From: Rhodanobacter sp. 7MK24
GTDB taxonomy: Bacteria; Pseudomonadota; Gammaproteobacteria; Xanthomonadales; Rhodanobacteraceae
Length of the DNA stretch: 64,000 nt
Direction of reading: 5' to 3'
Assembly: GCF_014842995.1 (NCBI RefSeq)
Contig: NZ_JACYXL010000001.1
Location: forward strand, 63,183 to 127,182
Of the stretch, positions 41,495 to 46,939 are shown piece after piece. The notes under the pieces were generated by a model that was not told the DNA's origin, did no database searches, and saw nothing but the letters and a program-made list of their open reading frames with translations. Position 1 is the stretch's first letter; each line of letters opens with the position of its first letter. The translations under genes were made by a program, and so were the position numbers.

Positions 41495-42835
41495 TCATCG
41501 TGCAGCCATGAGTGTGGTGGTGTCGAAGACGCACACGCGGTTGCGACCGCCTTCCTTGGCGCCGTACAGGGCACTGTCCGCGTGGGCCATCAGGGTCTCG
41601 TAGGTGTCCGAACCATCGGACAGCATGCAGAGCCCGATGGAGACGGTGAACCGGACCTCGTCCTCGCGCGGAATGCGGATGGCCAGCGACGCCAGGGTGC
41701 TGCGCAGCCGTTCGGCAATGACCAGCGCGTCGCTCATCTTCACCTCGGGCAGCAACAGGCCGAATTCTTCTCCGCCGAGCCGGCCGAGCAGGTCAATCTC
41801 GCGCAAGCCAGCCTGACACGTGCTGGCCAGGCCGACGAGCACCTGGTCGCCTACGGCGTGGCCATGGACGTCGTTGATGCTCTTGAAGTGGTCGACGTCC
41901 AGCAGCAGCATTGCAAGCGGGGTCTTGCTTCTCGCGCAGCGTGCGATCACGTGTTCGGACACCTCGATGAAGAAGCGCCTTGAACAGGTGCCGGTGAGCG
42001 CATCCGTATTCGCCATCTTCTCGAAGGTATGCGATTGAAGCTCCAGTTCGCGCGTCTTTTCCTCGAGAGCCGCGGTTCTCTCCCTGACGAGCGCTTCCAG
42101 TTTCTCGTGGTGCGATTGAAGTTCCGCTTCGTGGCGAATGCGTGCCGCAACGTTTTCGGCCAGGTATTCGCGCATGCGATTGATCGACCCCGCCATTTGA
42201 TCAATCTCGTCGGGTGACCGGTTCCATTTCGATTTCGGCAGGATGAGCGGAATGTCCAGATACTCCACACGCAGCATGCGCAGATAGCTGGACATGATCT
42301 CCAGCGATTGCGTCATCCGGGCCTGGACGAGGAGCAGGAGGGCCAGCGTTCCGAAGAATGTGAGGGAAAGTGTGGCGATGCCTATCTCGATGGCCTGATG
42401 TTGCAGCTTCTGCCTCACCGGGCTCCAGCCGAACTCGACGGTCAGGGTGCCGAGGTCGAAGTGCTGGTGGTCGCTGTAGATCAGGGGATAAGTGCGGGTT
42501 ACCCGCGGGTGTGCATCGGGCCGGCCACGCTGATGCAGTTCCTCATGGCTCTGCAGGCGCACATAGTCGACGCCCGGTATGTTGCCGATCTCGTCCAGGC
42601 GGTCATCTATTTCATGCGCGTTCACCTGCCAGAGGCTGCCGACGAGCGCGGGGACGATGGTCCGGCCGATTTCGTCAAGTCTTTGCCGCGTCGCATTTAC
42701 CTCGCTGCGATAGCTGCCAAGAAGCATCCAGGCGGTGATGATGACGGTGACCAGCAGGTTGATGGAGACATTCGCTACGGCCAGCCTCTTCGCCAGTACG
42801 CGCTTGTGCCGGCCGTTGGAGCCTTGCGTATTCAT
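41495..42835 (-). CDS. Membrane-bound diguanylate cyclase (GGDEF)
   Basis: 446 residues from ATG 42835, overlapping the preceding stop codon by 4 bases. Membrane helices at about 20-40 and 160-185 enclose a periplasmic sensor (about 41-158). A HAMP-like stretch and a coiled coil (about 235-275) lead to a GGDEF domain (about 278-440) with an intact GGEEF and DVDHFKSIND, so cyclic-di-GMP synthesis is likely. The N-terminal helix of the domain reads DALTGTCSRRFF in place of the usual DxLTGLxNRRxF. It is co-transcribed with a periplasmic binding protein that may signal to it. Confidence 0.92.
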   Translation of the reverse strand: MNTQGSNGRHKRVLAKRLAVANVSINLLVTVIITAWMLLGSYRSEVNATRQRLDEIGRTIVPALVGSLWQVNAHEIDDRLDEIGNIPGVDYVRLQSHEELHQRGRPDAHPRVTRTYPLIYSDHQHFDLGTLTVEFGWSPVRQKLQHQAIEIGIATLSLTFFGTLALLLLVQARMTQSLEIMSSYLRMLRVEYLDIPLILPKSKWNRSPDEIDQMAGSINRMREYLAENVAARIRHEAELQSHHEKLEALVRERTAALEEKTRELELQSHTFEKMANTDALTGTCSRRFFIEVSEHVIARCARSKTPLAMLLLDVDHFKSINDVHGHAVGDQVLVGLASTCQAGLREIDLLGRLGGEEFGLLLPEVKMSDALVIAERLRSTLASLAIRIPREDEVRFTVSIGLCMLSDGSDTYETLMAHADSALYGAKEGGRNRVCVFDTTTLMAAR

Positions 42836-43707
42836 TGCGTGGTTTCGGGTTGAAACCCGAAGTCGCGGCAAGCGGGCACCATGCTGGCCGGAAGCAATGG
42901 GTTGGTCAGCTCGATGACATGGCGATCGTGCAAGTGCAGGGCATTCAGGCTCTGGCGGTACGTGAGCTCGAACAGCCGCCGGAGGCTGCCGTCGGCAATG
43001 GCCCGTTCGAGGCCCTTCTGCAGTTCGGCGGCGAGTGATGGATTGCTTTTCGAAACGAAAAAGACGAGCGCCGACGGATAGTGCAGCAGCAGATGTGTCT
43101 CCGCTACGAGATCGGCTCCATCGGGGCTCTGGAGTTCCTGGCCTATCTCGGCCACCGATCGGGGCACGGCGTCGACGTGGCCCAGCTTCAACATCGAGAA
43201 TAGGGACGCGTAGTCGAACGCTGCAGTCATGTCGAAACCGTTGTCACGCAAGATCGCCAGATCCGGCCAGTCCTGATCCTGAGCCATCGGCACATGGGCC
43301 AGTTGCGAGACCGTCAGCAAGTCCCTGAACTGCTTCTCCTCGTCGCGCCTGATCAGCAGGATGCGCCAACCGATCAGGCCGCGATCGATCGGGACCCTGA
43401 CGGTAAGGAGCCGTTTGTCCCGCTCCACCGTCGCGACGGACCATCCTACCGTCACCACCTGGTTGTCCTCGAGCAGCCTGAGGGTGCGTGCCTGCGACAG
43501 CACGATCGCGCTCTGCTTCATCGAGAACGCGACATTCAGATGTTCCAAAGCCAGGCGCAGAACCGCGACCGGGTAGCCCGTTCTGGCGTCGTAGGGCGTT
43601 TCCGGCCGGGGAAAGACCACCTGCAGGGAGGGCGCGGCATGCACGCCTGCCGACGAGAATTCGAGTGCAGCCATCATGGCCAAGCGGAAAAGACGTTTTC
43701 CCACCAT
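42832..43707 (-). CDS. Periplasmic solute-binding protein (SBP_bac_3-like) paired with cyclase
   Basis: 291 residues from ATG 43707 (GAGG upstream). A Sec signal peptide of about 25 residues ends in GVHAA. The remainder follows the type-3 binding-protein pattern: the region VGWSVATVERDKRLLTVRVPI, the hinge region DYASLFSMLKLGHVDAVPRS and a C-terminal lobe with LQKGLERAIADGSLRRLFE. No ABC transporter genes accompany it; it overlaps the diguanylate cyclase by ATGA, so it is probably a ligand-sensing partner and not a transport protein. Compare the sensor at 16.4 kb, in which such a domain is fused to the signalling domains. Confidence 0.78.
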   Translation of the reverse strand: MVGKRLFRLAMMAALEFSSAGVHAAPSLQVVFPRPETPYDARTGYPVAVLRLALEHLNVAFSMKQSAIVLSQARTLRLLEDNQVVTVGWSVATVERDKRLLTVRVPIDRGLIGWRILLIRRDEEKQFRDLLTVSQLAHVPMAQDQDWPDLAILRDNGFDMTAAFDYASLFSMLKLGHVDAVPRSVAEIGQELQSPDGADLVAETHLLLHYPSALVFFVSKSNPSLAAELQKGLERAIADGSLRRLFELTYRQSLNALHLHDRHVIELTNPLLPASMVPACRDFGFQPETTQ

Positions 43708-44123
43708 GCCAGCCTCGCCTTGCCAAGTCACATCGTTCCCCGGCGCCGATCTTTGTCATGAAAAGGGTGGCCGAGGACTGCCACTCTTCGTCTTCCAGCG
43801 GGTCATCGGGAATGCACCGGATACCTGCGGGATCAACGATAACGCAGGGTCATGGATACGGTCGATAGCACGCAAATTTGACTACGGCGAGGGGTGGTCG
43901 GCATGCACCTCGCGCGGGCAGGGATCGTTTCCGCATCATTGGGACGTCGCTGCGTCTGGTATCGGCTTACAGGCCAAGAACATTAACCGGGCTTGCTTCC
44001 CCCGGGATGGCTAAGAAGGGCGCCCTGGCCACAGACAAGCGTTCGGGGCGAGGAATAGGGCGGCCACAAGCCGCCCGCCGGCTGACGGCAGGCACGAAGG
44101 ACGAGGAAGCCGGCGGCGAACGG
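43708..44123. other. 416-base gene-free region with weak hairpin
   Basis: Lies between the molybdoenzyme large subunit stop and the binding-protein start, both minus strand. A GGGCGGC/GCCGCCC hairpin with a 5-base loop at 44058-44076 lies 48 bases after the stop, with little T-run (TATTCC), so it is a weak terminator candidate. The promoter of the binding-protein/cyclase pair should be near 43740-43800; no clear boxes are seen. No gene recognised. Confidence 0.4.
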
Positions 44124-46400
44124 TCACAGCAACCGCTGAAACTCCTTCAGCAGCGGCAGCCGCCGCACACGCACCGCGCTGACGCGGAACACCGAGTTGG
44201 CGAGGGCCGGCGCGACGGTGGGCATGGCAAGGAAGCTGGCGCCGGTGGGCGGACGTCCGTCGTCGGGGACGACAATCGTTTCCACGCTGTTCGGCAGCAA
44301 GGCCATGCTGGCGAGCGGATAGCTTTTCCAATCGTGCTGCTGCACCTGACCGTCCTTCACCGTGATGGCCAGATTGAGCGCGGTGGAGAGCGCATCCAGC
44401 GTGGCGCCGGCGACCTGGCCTTCGAGGCCGAGCGGGTTGATCACGCGGCCCACATCCACGGCGCAGACGACGCGCTCGATGCCGAGCTTGTCGTTCTGCA
44501 ACGAGGTCTCGATGGCGTGCGCCACGTAGGCGCCGTCCATGTACCAGCAGGCGATGCCCAGGCCGTTGACGCTGCGCAGCCAGCTCTTCCAGCCGATGCG
44601 GTCGGCGACGAGCTGCAGCACGTTGCGCAGGCGGCCGGTGTCCAGCATGCCGCCGTTCTTCAGCGCGATGTTGCGCGGCTCGCCGAGCAGGCGCAGGCGG
44701 GTTTGCAGCGGATCCTCGCGCAACTGGTGCGCGATTTCGTCGATGAAGCTCTCCGCCGCGAAGGCATTGGCGAGGTGCGGCATGGCGCGGTGCGGACCGC
44801 GTGGCAAGCTGGACTCCTGCGCATACCAGTCGCTGCGGAAATTGGGCACGAGGCCCGCGGGCAACTGGTCGGCGGAGACTTCCGAATTCCACAGGCGGTC
44901 GGCGGGCACGCCCCGGCCGGCGAGTGCGGACGCGCTGGCGATGCGCTGGTTCCAGGCAACCACGTTGCGCTTGCGGTCGAGCGTGGCGCTGATCCTGTGC
45001 ACGCTGGCGGGGCGGTAGTAGTCGTTGGTGAAGTCTTCGCTGCGCGTCCACAGCAGGCGCACCGGCTTGTTCACGGCCTTGGCCAGCAGCACCGCTTCGG
45101 CCACGTAGTCGTGGTCGAGGCGGCGACCGTAGCCGCCGCCGACGCGCGGCACGCGGATCTCGATCTGGTCGGGAGCGAGGCCGGTGAGTCGTTGCACCAC
45201 TGCCCAGGCCTGCTGCGGCGCCTGCGTGGGTACCACGAGGCTGGCCTTGTCCTTGTCGATGCGCGCGAGGCAGTTCATCGGTTCGGCACAGGCGTGTGCG
45301 AGCCAGGGTTGGTAGTAGGTGGCGTCGAGCCGGCTGGCGGCGTGCTTGGCAGCCTTCTCCACGTCGCCTTCGTCGCGCACGCGGGTGGTGGGCGCGGCGG
45401 TGGATTTGTCGTCGAGCAGGGCGGCGGCCTGCTGTTCCAGTGCGGCGCTGCTTTCCGCGGCACCGGCGCCGGGCTTCCATACCACCTTGAGCTTGTCGCG
45501 ACCTTCCAGCGCGGCCCAGGTGTTTTCGGCCAGCACCGCAACCGCGGGAGCGATCACGGTAAAGCCGCGTGACTGGCTGGGATCCGGCTTCAGCTGCAGC
45601 ACCTTGGCCACGCCCTTCACCGCGAGCGCGGGGGCGGGATCGACGCTTGCCAGCGTGCCATCGGGCCAGGGGCAGTGCAGCAGCACGGCGACCAGCGCCT
45701 CGGCCTCGTTGTGGTCGATGGCGTACTTGGCCTGGCCGGTGACGATGGCGTGCGCATTGGCGTCGCCTACCGGCTTGCCGATCAAGGTGTAGCGATCCGG
45801 CGACTTCGGCGCGGGCGGCTGCTGCGGCAGGTCGATCTTGCTGGCGTCGTCCACCAGGCTGCCGTAGGTGACGCGGCGGCCGTCGGGCGCGATCACCGTG
45901 CCGGCTTCGCAATGCAGGCGGTCGGCCGCGATGCCGAGGCGGCGCGCGGCAGCCTGGGTCAGCAGCCAGCGTGCGAGCGCGCCAGCATGGCGCAAATCGG
46001 CCCATGCAGCGGGGACGGAGTCGCCGGTGCCACCGCGCTGATGGCCGTAGGTCCAGCGTGGCCGGCCGTTGTCGCCCGTTTCGACACCGAGGCCGAGGGG
46101 CACCACGCTGACGCGGTTCCAGTCCGCATCGAGCTCGTCGGCCACGATCATCGGCAACGCGGTGGCGACGCCGGTGCCGGTGTCGGGATCGCGCGCGCCG
46201 ATCAACACGTTGCCATCGGAATCGATGCGCACATACGCGCCCAGATCATGGAAATCGTTGCCCAGCCATTCCTGCGGCAGCGATGGTTCGCCGGCCTCGG
46301 CGAAGCGCACGCCGATCACCAGCGCACCCGCGGTACCGGCGAGTATCTGCAGGAAGCGCCGGCGCGACAGCCCGATGCCGTTCGACGGGTTCGCGCTCAT
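44124..46400 (-). CDS. Xanthine dehydrogenase family molybdopterin-binding subunit, IorB-like, catalytic Glu missing
   Basis: 758 residues from ATG 46400, overlapping the small-subunit stop codon by 4 bases. A Tat-type signal (SRRRFLQILAG) at the N terminus indicates export of the folded enzyme, as in isoquinoline 1-oxidoreductase beta subunits. Family marks include DTGTGVATALPMIVADELD, HACAEPMN, VPRVGGGYGRRLDHDY and the C-terminal VAPALANSVFRVSAVRVRRL. In the usual position seven residues before APALAN, where these enzymes have the catalytic Glu of GVGEP, this protein has GASFL: the Glu is Phe. Checked at DNA level. The reading frame is intact. It may be inactive as a hydroxylase or do other chemistry. 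Confidence 0.85.
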   Translation of the reverse strand: MSANPSNGIGLSRRRFLQILAGTAGALVIGVRFAEAGEPSLPQEWLGNDFHDLGAYVRIDSDGNVLIGARDPDTGTGVATALPMIVADELDADWNRVSVVPLGLGVETGDNGRPRWTYGHQRGGTGDSVPAAWADLRHAGALARWLLTQAAARRLGIAADRLHCEAGTVIAPDGRRVTYGSLVDDASKIDLPQQPPAPKSPDRYTLIGKPVGDANAHAIVTGQAKYAIDHNEAEALVAVLLHCPWPDGTLASVDPAPALAVKGVAKVLQLKPDPSQSRGFTVIAPAVAVLAENTWAALEGRDKLKVVWKPGAGAAESSAALEQQAAALLDDKSTAAPTTRVRDEGDVEKAAKHAASRLDATYYQPWLAHACAEPMNCLARIDKDKASLVVPTQAPQQAWAVVQRLTGLAPDQIEIRVPRVGGGYGRRLDHDYVAEAVLLAKAVNKPVRLLWTRSEDFTNDYYRPASVHRISATLDRKRNVVAWNQRIASASALAGRGVPADRLWNSEVSADQLPAGLVPNFRSDWYAQESSLPRGPHRAMPHLANAFAAESFIDEIAHQLREDPLQTRLRLLGEPRNIALKNGGMLDTGRLRNVLQLVADRIGWKSWLRSVNGLGIACWYMDGAYVAHAIETSLQNDKLGIERVVCAVDVGRVINPLGLEGQVAGATLDALSTALNLAITVKDGQVQQHDWKSYPLASMALLPNSVETIVVPDDGRPPTGASFLAMPTVAPALANSVFRVSAVRVRRLPLLKEFQRLL

Positions 46401-46939
46401 GCCTGGCCCACCTTGCCGGCCGCGGCGCGCTTGATCGCGGCGCGTACCCGGGTCTGACAACCGCAACGGCAGCTGTTGGGCAACTGGTTGATGTCGGCGT
46501 CGCTGGGTTGCGGCTTCCGCTTGAGCAGGTCGAAGCCGGCCATCAGCCAGCCCGGCGTGCAGTAGCCGCAACCGATCGCGTCCTCGTCGATGAAAGCCTG
46601 CTGCAGCGGATGCAGGGTGCCGTCGTCCGCAGCGAGGCCCTCCACCGTGGTGATGCTCTTGCCGGCAAGCTTCGCCATCGGCTGGGTGATCGCGGAAACC
46701 AGCTTGCCGTTCACCAGCACCAGGTCGGCGCCGCTGCCGCCGTGCGCGCCGCCGTACTTGGTGCCGGTGAGCCACAGCACGTCGCGCAAGTACCACAGCA
46801 GTGGCATCTGCGGGTCGCCGGTATGCGCGAAGTGTTCGCCGTTTATTTCGACCGCAATGCCGCCATGCGCCGCCGCGGGCGCGATGCCGTTGTCCGGAAC
46901 GGCCGGCGTACCGTGGGCTTGGGCTTGGGCTTGCGCCAT
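46397..46939 (-). CDS. (2Fe-2S)-binding subunit, IorA-like, lacking the ferredoxin-type cluster cysteines
   Basis: 180 residues. In this family residues around 60-85 bind a plant-ferredoxin-type cluster through GCGxGxCGAC and a later Cys. Here the segment reads LTGTKYGGAHGGSGADLV: the three cysteines are Gly64, Ser69 and Asp72, and the fourth site (near 83) is Ala or Ile. The second [2Fe-2S] cluster site is kept: Cys124-x2-Cys127 (GCGYCTPG) and Cys157-x-Cys159, with a further Cys161. A His/Gln/Ala-rich 25-residue N terminus precedes the fold. It should pass electrons to the molybdenum subunit encoded next, by ATGA overlap. No cytochrome gene is adjacent. Confidence 0.85.
   Translation of the reverse strand: MAQAQAQAHGTPAVPDNGIAPAAAHGGIAVEINGEHFAHTGDPQMPLLWYLRDVLWLTGTKYGGAHGGSGADLVLVNGKLVSAITQPMAKLAGKSITTVEGLAADDGTLHPLQQAFIDEDAIGCGYCTPGWLMAGFDLLKRKPQPSDADINQLPNSCRCGCQTRVRAAIKRAAAGKVGQA

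Follow-up and report, generated by a model that had tools for sequence, protein, structure and literature searches.

The 64,000-nucleotide stretch of the Rhodanobacter sp. 7MK24 genome analysed here (contig NZ_JACYXL010000001.1; hereafter, the window) carries two overlapping genes, both on the minus strand like all features of the pair described below, for a heterodimeric relative of the molybdenum hydroxylases that lacks several features of a functional enzyme of this kind. The first gene (46397..46939) encodes an IorA-like small, iron–sulphur subunit of 180 residues, and the second (44124..46400) an IorB-like large subunit of 758 residues with a molybdopterin-binding fold. Both frames are open and overlap in an ATGA at 46397-46400, as an earlier note on this DNA had stated. 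Pfam matches above the cut-off were Fer2_2 in the small subunit, where it was the sole match and no Fer2 domain was detected by Pfam, and MoCoBD_1 and MoCoBD_2 in the large subunit, with Ald_Xan_dh_C remaining under the cut-off. These domains and the heterodimeric IorA/IorB layout place the pair in the xanthine oxidase family by descent. The best solved relative of the large subunit is PDB 8gy3 (E 6.3e-54), which we take to be a Gluconobacter-type aldehyde dehydrogenase; this structure and the IorA/IorB-type molybdenum hydroxylases have the same two-subunit architecture and domain order as the pair. Residues 12-18 of the large subunit form the twin-arginine motif SRRRFLQ (46347..46367), with R13 and R14 present in 41 of 41 members of the clade described below, in agreement with the twin-arginine translocation (Tat) signal of the earlier note; export is predicted from this motif. 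No further large subunit like that of the pair was found in the window's genome by a PF20256 search.

The small subunit has lost one of the two [2Fe-2S] cluster sites of a functional molybdenum hydroxylase. In the ferredoxin-type site (residues 64-84, 46688..46750), Gly64, Ser69, Asp72 and Ile84 stand in place of cysteines, leaving none of the four ligands; the segment, GTKYGGAHGGSGADLVLVNGKLVSAI, was read both in the translation and in the DNA and bears out the earlier claim that all ligands of this cluster are replaced. The small subunits aligned from outside the family have cysteine at all four positions (28 of 28), and Asp72 is found in 41 of 41 clade members. The second site is kept, as had also been claimed, with all four ligands (C124, C127, C157 and C159; 46463..46570) conserved in 41 of 41 members each, and a clade-specific Cys161 lies just past it in 38 of 41. 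Immediately before the CGxC motif of this site, Gly123 (46571..46573) replaces a glutamine; the residue is Gln in 28 of 28 sequences outside the family and Gly in 41 of 41 within the clade. By its place in the motif, Gly123 is the equivalent of the pterin-contact Gln113 of human aldehyde oxidase AOX1 (cf. PMC6487702).

The large subunit departs from its relatives both at the catalytic motif and around the molybdenum cofactor (Moco). Its C-terminal end reads PPTGASFLAMPTVAPALAN, in which Gly-Ala-Ser-Phe-Leu (720-724; 44229..44243) replaces GxGE-P, so that Phe723 takes the place of the catalytic glutamate and Ser722 that of the neighbouring glycine; translation, DNA and alignment agree on this, and the GASFL-for-GVGE exchange described earlier was thus real. 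The two positions are Glu and Gly in 29 of 29 aligned relatives from outside the family. A second change concerns the loop beside the cofactor, TGGS in 8gy3 and Ser-Gly-Gly-Ser in human AOX1 (PMC6487702), which became Gly-Gly-Thr-Gly (123-126; 46023..46034). In the window clade the glutamine of the MGQG segment is replaced by Thr76. In short, 8gy3 has GLGE with its glutamate, the TGGS loop and MGQ, whereas the window's protein has GASF, GGTG and TGTG. The MGQG glutamine presumably contacts Moco. Among the 41 window-type sequences, Ser722 occurs in all 41, Gly126 in 40 and Thr76 in 40, and the glutamate is replaced by Phe in 40 and Leu in one. Other parts of the pocket are kept in the clade, namely GGGYGRR (with Tyr424 for Phe), Gln393, Arg538 (40 of 41) and Gln662. 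In terms of human AOX1 the clade has altered Gln113, the loop, Gly1269 and Glu1270, the rest being kept, with residue numbers taken from PMC6487702 and equivalence established by motif alignment rather than by structure. In human AOX1, replacement of the glycine next to the catalytic glutamate by arginine gives a folded, Moco-free protein (PMC6487702). Mouse AOX1 with glutamine for the catalytic glutamate is inactive (PMC2671166), so that hydroxylase chemistry is not expected of the pair.

To place these changes, 197 genomes of the same GTDB family, a sample of a larger group, were searched. A match to the small subunit was found in 193 of the 197, some possibly paralogues. Genomes for typing were picked to span the genera, and the second round took the remaining genomes without Moco-synthesis genes; in all, one or both subunits were typed in 131 genomes (96 in the first round and 35 in the second), one genome with a partial match (G099) being left out and another (G087) typed on the small subunit only. 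Four pairs represented by one subunit or a part (L084, L098, L112 and L170) were excluded from the tree and the tabulation. Window-type pairs, defined by the absence of the ferredoxin-type cysteines and by Phe, once Leu, for Glu, number 55 (large subunit seen in 54) and occur in 14 of 26 genera in the family. Among named family members the window type is seen in Rhodanobacter thiooxydans, R. glycinis, Dyella silvae, D. psychrodurans, D. lipolytica and a Frateuria, among others. The earlier note had asked whether a clade shares the substitutions, and it does: in 41 of 41 first-typed pairs the four cysteines are absent and the glutamate is replaced, and 14 more window-type pairs were added later. 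Since the same states recur throughout the clade, a sequencing error was rejected as the cause of the missing residues. Pairs that keep the cysteines and have lost the glutamate also exist, with Val in Luteibacter and Ile in Oleiagrimonas. Outside the family, a search of the class (29 loci read from 51 matching genomes) revealed Glu in 29 of 29 large subunits and the cysteines in 28 of 28 small subunits. In a search of named organisms, covering 80 of 582 matches, Glu was present at 61 of the 62 loci outside the family among the matches listed, one being unresolved by an alignment gap, and the cysteine motif in all 59 of the small subunits found there.

Several relatives depart from these types. 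In genera g9 and g26 (L085-L087, L161, L167-L169, L286-L289), large subunits occur in which GxGE is scrambled or shortened and the small-subunit cysteines are kept; these are separate losses, perhaps later ones or signs of decay. In small subunits of genus g5 (L165, L166, L285) the ferredoxin-type cysteines differ in their surroundings or spacing, and this cluster may there be on another path to being lost. A metagenome-assembled genome labelled Acidobacteria BJ1 contains a Glu-keeping pair (L190), 44% identical to that of the window and nearer to the Xanthomonadales type than other outside loci, for which horizontal transfer or wrong binning could be offered as explanations. A TGA that seemed to interrupt two paralogous large subunits (G032 and G008) in frame was rejected, as it lies just ahead of the large-subunit sequence, at the end of the small-subunit frame.

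The distribution of Moco synthesis was assessed by scanning the 197 genomes for MoaA (PF06463), MoeA_N (PF03453) and MoaC (PF01967), together with the sulphite oxidase (SUOX) family. Matches were obtained in 148, 150 and 149 genomes, respectively; all three genes were present in 144, a mixture in 10 and none in 43, of which 36 reach a completeness of at least 90%. The window's genome (99.9% complete) is one of the 43, with MoaA, MoaC and MoeA all unmatched, and by these three pathway genes does not make Moco; the earlier remark that no cofactor-insertion gene adjoins the pair is right as far as we looked, and the three synthesis genes are missing genome-wide. SUOX-family enzymes above the cut-off were found in 0 of the 43 Moco-less genomes versus 120 of the 154 others (one genome, G105, was counted as under the cut-off from its being the weakest match). 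The small subunit is nevertheless kept in 42 of the 43 Moco-less genomes, in exactly one copy in 39, and half-matches to MoCoBD_2 number two in 36 of these genomes, one in four, three in two (G063 and G165) and zero in one. Six single-contig Moco-less assemblies carry a window-type pair (G017, G023, G031, G039, G046 and G069).

The 42 pairs in Moco-less genomes comprise 31 of the window type and 11 with Glu lost and the cysteines kept; 41 of their large subunits were typed, and none keeps Glu. The 30 Glu-keeping pairs are distributed over genomes with all three genes (28) and drafts missing one or two (two), with none in Moco-less genomes. For pairs with Glu lost and cysteines kept the corresponding numbers are 31 with all three genes, four mixed and 11 Moco-less, and for the 55 window-type pairs 24 with all three genes and 31 Moco-less. 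With the gene tree standing in for a species tree, 13 losses of Moco synthesis were placed, all in the Glu-lost part and none in the Glu-kept part, along with four regains; the Glu-kept part makes up 28% of the Moco-positive branch length, and under a crude uniform model the probability of no loss there is about 0.014. A separate contrast was seen within one genus, g25 (L113-L117, L051, L153, L154, L269), where three GAGE pairs occur in genomes with Moco genes (one a draft without one of the three) and six pairs typed as GAED, with Asp, all occur in Moco-less genomes.

A phylogenetic tree of 102 large subunits was constructed with the Glu motif removed, by a quick method that left several open forks and flagged long outgroup branches. 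The 41 window-type sequences form one clade with a value of 100 in the Shimodaira–Hasegawa-like approximate likelihood ratio test (SH-aLRT), and its neighbours are g11/g12 (Val, cysteines kept), then g13 (Ile, Thr, Gly) and then g24 (Glu, Asp, Ala). Parsimony requires six changes for Glu kept or lost and one for the cysteines. Because Glu changed six times and the cysteines once, and relatives that lost Glu and kept the cysteines survive, the losses were successive. A single joint loss, as the earlier note had implied, is thus not borne out: Glu was lost earlier and several times. Gene order points to a common origin of the locus, since an amino-acid permease upstream and genes for a TonB-like and an elongation factor G (EF-G)-like protein on the opposite side are common to Glu-keeping, Glu-lost and window-type loci, which supports the orthology of the three pair types. 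Pfam identified permease, fumarase, PhzF-like and pro-kumamolisin neighbours, and the TonB-like and EF-G-like assignments are our reading of the sequences. In the window itself, the permease neighbour has been lost and the other flank retained.

Selection on the pair was assessed by the ratio of nonsynonymous to synonymous substitution rates (dN/dS), calculated pairwise by the Nei–Gojobori method (NG86). When the window was compared with L052, the relative nearest to it, the ratio was 0.148 for the large and 0.271 for the small subunit, and the dN/dS check proposed earlier gave values below 1 within the clade. The median for window-type large subunits was 0.367 in genomes with Moco genes (147 pairs) and 0.387 in those without (78 pairs), and for small subunits 0.490 and 0.453, respectively, intermediate between Glu-keeping (0.647, 65 pairs) and Glu-lost, Cys-kept relatives (0.251, 78 pairs). 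On these rough figures the pair is under purifying selection that shows no visible relaxation where Moco has been lost, and the large subunit is more weakly constrained than in its relatives. New residues became nearly fixed at 7 of 14 formerly invariant columns in the small subunit and 9 of 19 in the large one; Asp72, Phe116, Gly123, Trp131 and Ser722 are invariant in the clade, and Thr128 and Phe723 occur in 40 of 41. Altogether, 76 positions (16 small, 60 large) are near-invariant in the clade and rare outside it. No stop codon was found inside any window-type match listed.

The pair is, with high probability, a molybdenum-independent heterodimer of the xanthine oxidase family, a Tat-exported pseudoenzyme with one [2Fe-2S] cluster that is under purifying selection. 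The prevailing cofactor-site residues are alike in hosts with and without Moco genes, and because they are identical in Moco-making relatives, the pair would bind no Moco there either, as judged from the sequences; this rests on the other changes in the pocket and on the Moco-less hosts rather than on the loss of Glu alone. As the pair is retained even in bacteria without Moco-synthesis genes, it very likely has a new molybdenum-independent job, and selection appears to maintain that function. The protein would probably be periplasmic, with one buried [2Fe-2S] cluster kept and the cofactor pocket either empty or re-used. Since the pair would have neither the hydroxylase reaction nor an outward path for electrons, our favoured guess, and the weakest step of the proposed mechanism, is that it acts as a binding or scaffolding protein, with a small ligand in the vacated pocket or another protein as its partner; the remaining cluster would then be a structural element or local redox sensor. 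The earlier view, which preferred a coherent change of function to random decay, is supported by the SH-aLRT 100 clade, the fixed new residues, the open frames and dN/dS below 1. As for the history, it is likely that the lineage left molybdenum stepwise at one syntenic locus, passing from Glu kept, through Glu lost with both clusters present, to the loss of more contacts and of the outer cluster; Moco synthesis would then have been lost repeatedly from the genomes once the enzyme had become dispensable, the protein itself being kept to serve a new function after export.

Several observations weigh against such a molybdenum-independent role. The retained pocket residues GGGYGRR, Gln393, Arg538 and Gln662 mean that some ligand, conceivably Moco, could still bind, and the mouse AOX1 Glu-to-Gln variant still had a Moco content of 60% (PMC2671166), so that Moco can be bound even where Glu is missing. 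The genome scan covered three Moco-synthesis genes and, among Moco enzymes beyond the pair's own family, the SUOX family. The third MoCoBD_2 half-match in G165 is strong (1.2e-56), and since this draft is 87% complete it may merely lack the contigs with Moco genes. Large-subunit medians of dN/dS are lower in Glu-keeping pairs (0.220, 24 pairs) and in Glu-lost, Cys-kept pairs with Moco genes (0.185, 45 pairs), and constraint may thus be somewhat relaxed in the window type; all these ratios are rough owing to saturation, GC bias and the underestimation of dS in GC-rich genes. Finally, near-invariant columns make up 39% of all columns in the small and 33% in the large subunit, so that the excess at formerly invariant columns is modest.

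Other explanations could be considered. The pair could belong to a larger complex, respiratory or periplasmic, in which it would transfer electrons or have a structural part; the molybdenum fold would have lost its cofactor and serve as an iron–sulphur protein or scaffold, comparable to Nqo3/NuoG or ActB. One cluster site is indeed kept in 41 of 41 members, and ActB offers a precedent in the DMSO (dimethyl sulphoxide) reductase family (PMC10100899), but the window clade no longer has the outer cluster, through which electrons usually leave. Neither a cytochrome, the absence of which had been correctly noted before, nor any respiratory gene was found among the nine neighbouring proteins scanned, and no fixed partner gene was seen, the permease adjoining the pair in 7 of the 14 genomes searched. 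We regard this explanation, and with it the electron-transfer role suggested in the earlier note, as possible, though unlikely. A new active site, with another metal or an organic cofactor in the pocket and a different chemistry, would account for the 76 clade-specific positions, including Asp72, Trp131, Ser722 and Phe723, as well as for Cys161, which 38 of 41 members have close to the cluster; yet no cofactor-binding family other than the parent one was detected for the pair in Pfam or NCBIfam, and this explanation is doubtful.

It is improbable that Moco is still bound and another reaction catalysed in Moco-making relatives, with the protein having no work to do, or being a mere passenger, in the other hosts. 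Some of the pocket persists and 24 of the 55 window-type pairs reside in genomes with all three Moco genes, but the other 31 do not, being in Moco-less genomes, and both the prevailing residues and dN/dS are alike in Moco-positive and Moco-negative hosts. Of the roles envisaged earlier, a different reaction that depends on molybdenum and a Moco carrier are unlikely, because the window's own genome has no match to MoaA, MoaC or MoeA. That the pair is decaying into pseudogenes would fit the loss of catalytic and cluster residues, the elevated large-subunit dN/dS relative to Glu-keeping pairs and the scrambled motif in some g9 and g26 members. It is scarcely credible in view of the intact window-type matches listed, all without internal stops, the presence of a pair in all but one of the 43 Moco-less genomes, the fixation of new residues and the low dN/dS between the window and L052 (0.148 and 0.271).

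Concerning the neighbouring genes, the gene-order script placed the permease just upstream in 31 of 40 loci and missed at least one (L186, Luteibacter) where it is adjacent. A permease search in 14 genomes found it beside the pair in seven and not in the other seven (G000, G022, G069, G106, G137, G023 and G024), which include that of the window; in six of the latter the sole match is a 55-58% paralogue at another place in the genome, and G024 is without any match at the E cut-off. The permease was therefore rejected as an obligatory partner, and the pair can stand without it. Downstream of the pair, at 41495-43731 on the minus strand, the gene for a CHASE5-GGDEF diguanylate cyclase overlaps the one upstream of it, whose product is predicted to be exported, looks periplasmic-binding-like by eye and has no Pfam match in the stretch scanned. 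The two are probably a cyclic di-GMP sensor pair; the cyclase family is present at 4 of 40 loci in the gene-order comparison.

Precedents for loss of the cofactor come from the DMSO reductase family, the other large group of molybdenum enzymes. There, ActB, a part of alternative complex III, lacks the Mo/W-bis(pyranopterin guanine dinucleotide) cofactor and has lost three clusters (PMC10100899), and, as is proposed for the pair, it and Nqo3/NuoG combine a molybdenum fold without cofactor with a new role; unlike the pair, they have a different molybdenum fold and belong to membrane respiratory complexes with known partners. Nqo3 corresponds to NuoG of complex I. The human aldehyde oxidase variant G1269R (6q6q) resembles the pair in a change at the glycine beside the catalytic glutamate and in a fold that stays intact Moco-free, but it is an inactive natural variant rather than a lineage, with Arg instead of Ser and with Glu kept. 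For the xanthine oxidase family, molybdenum independence has been suggested for orphan molybdoproteins: a 2018 survey counted 305 bacteria and five archaea with homologues of Moco-dependent enzymes and no complete Moco pathway, and proposed new Moco components or molybdenum-independent forms (PMC6147048). The pair, a xanthine oxidase-family homologue in a genome without the three scanned pathway genes, belongs with these orphans as so described. The available part of the survey gives no distinguishing sequence feature, whereas the pair has defined substitutions and forms a clade. No published description of the present subfamily was apparent in the open-licence literature.

The pair thus supplies sequence features for the orphan molybdoprotein puzzle, of relevance to molybdenum and pseudoenzyme specialists, and the substitutions, the clade, the g25 contrast and the single-contig genomes make the question testable by purifying one protein. 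For many Xanthomonadales genomes, the naming of these proteins by family models as molybdopterin-binding oxidoreductases is probably wrong.

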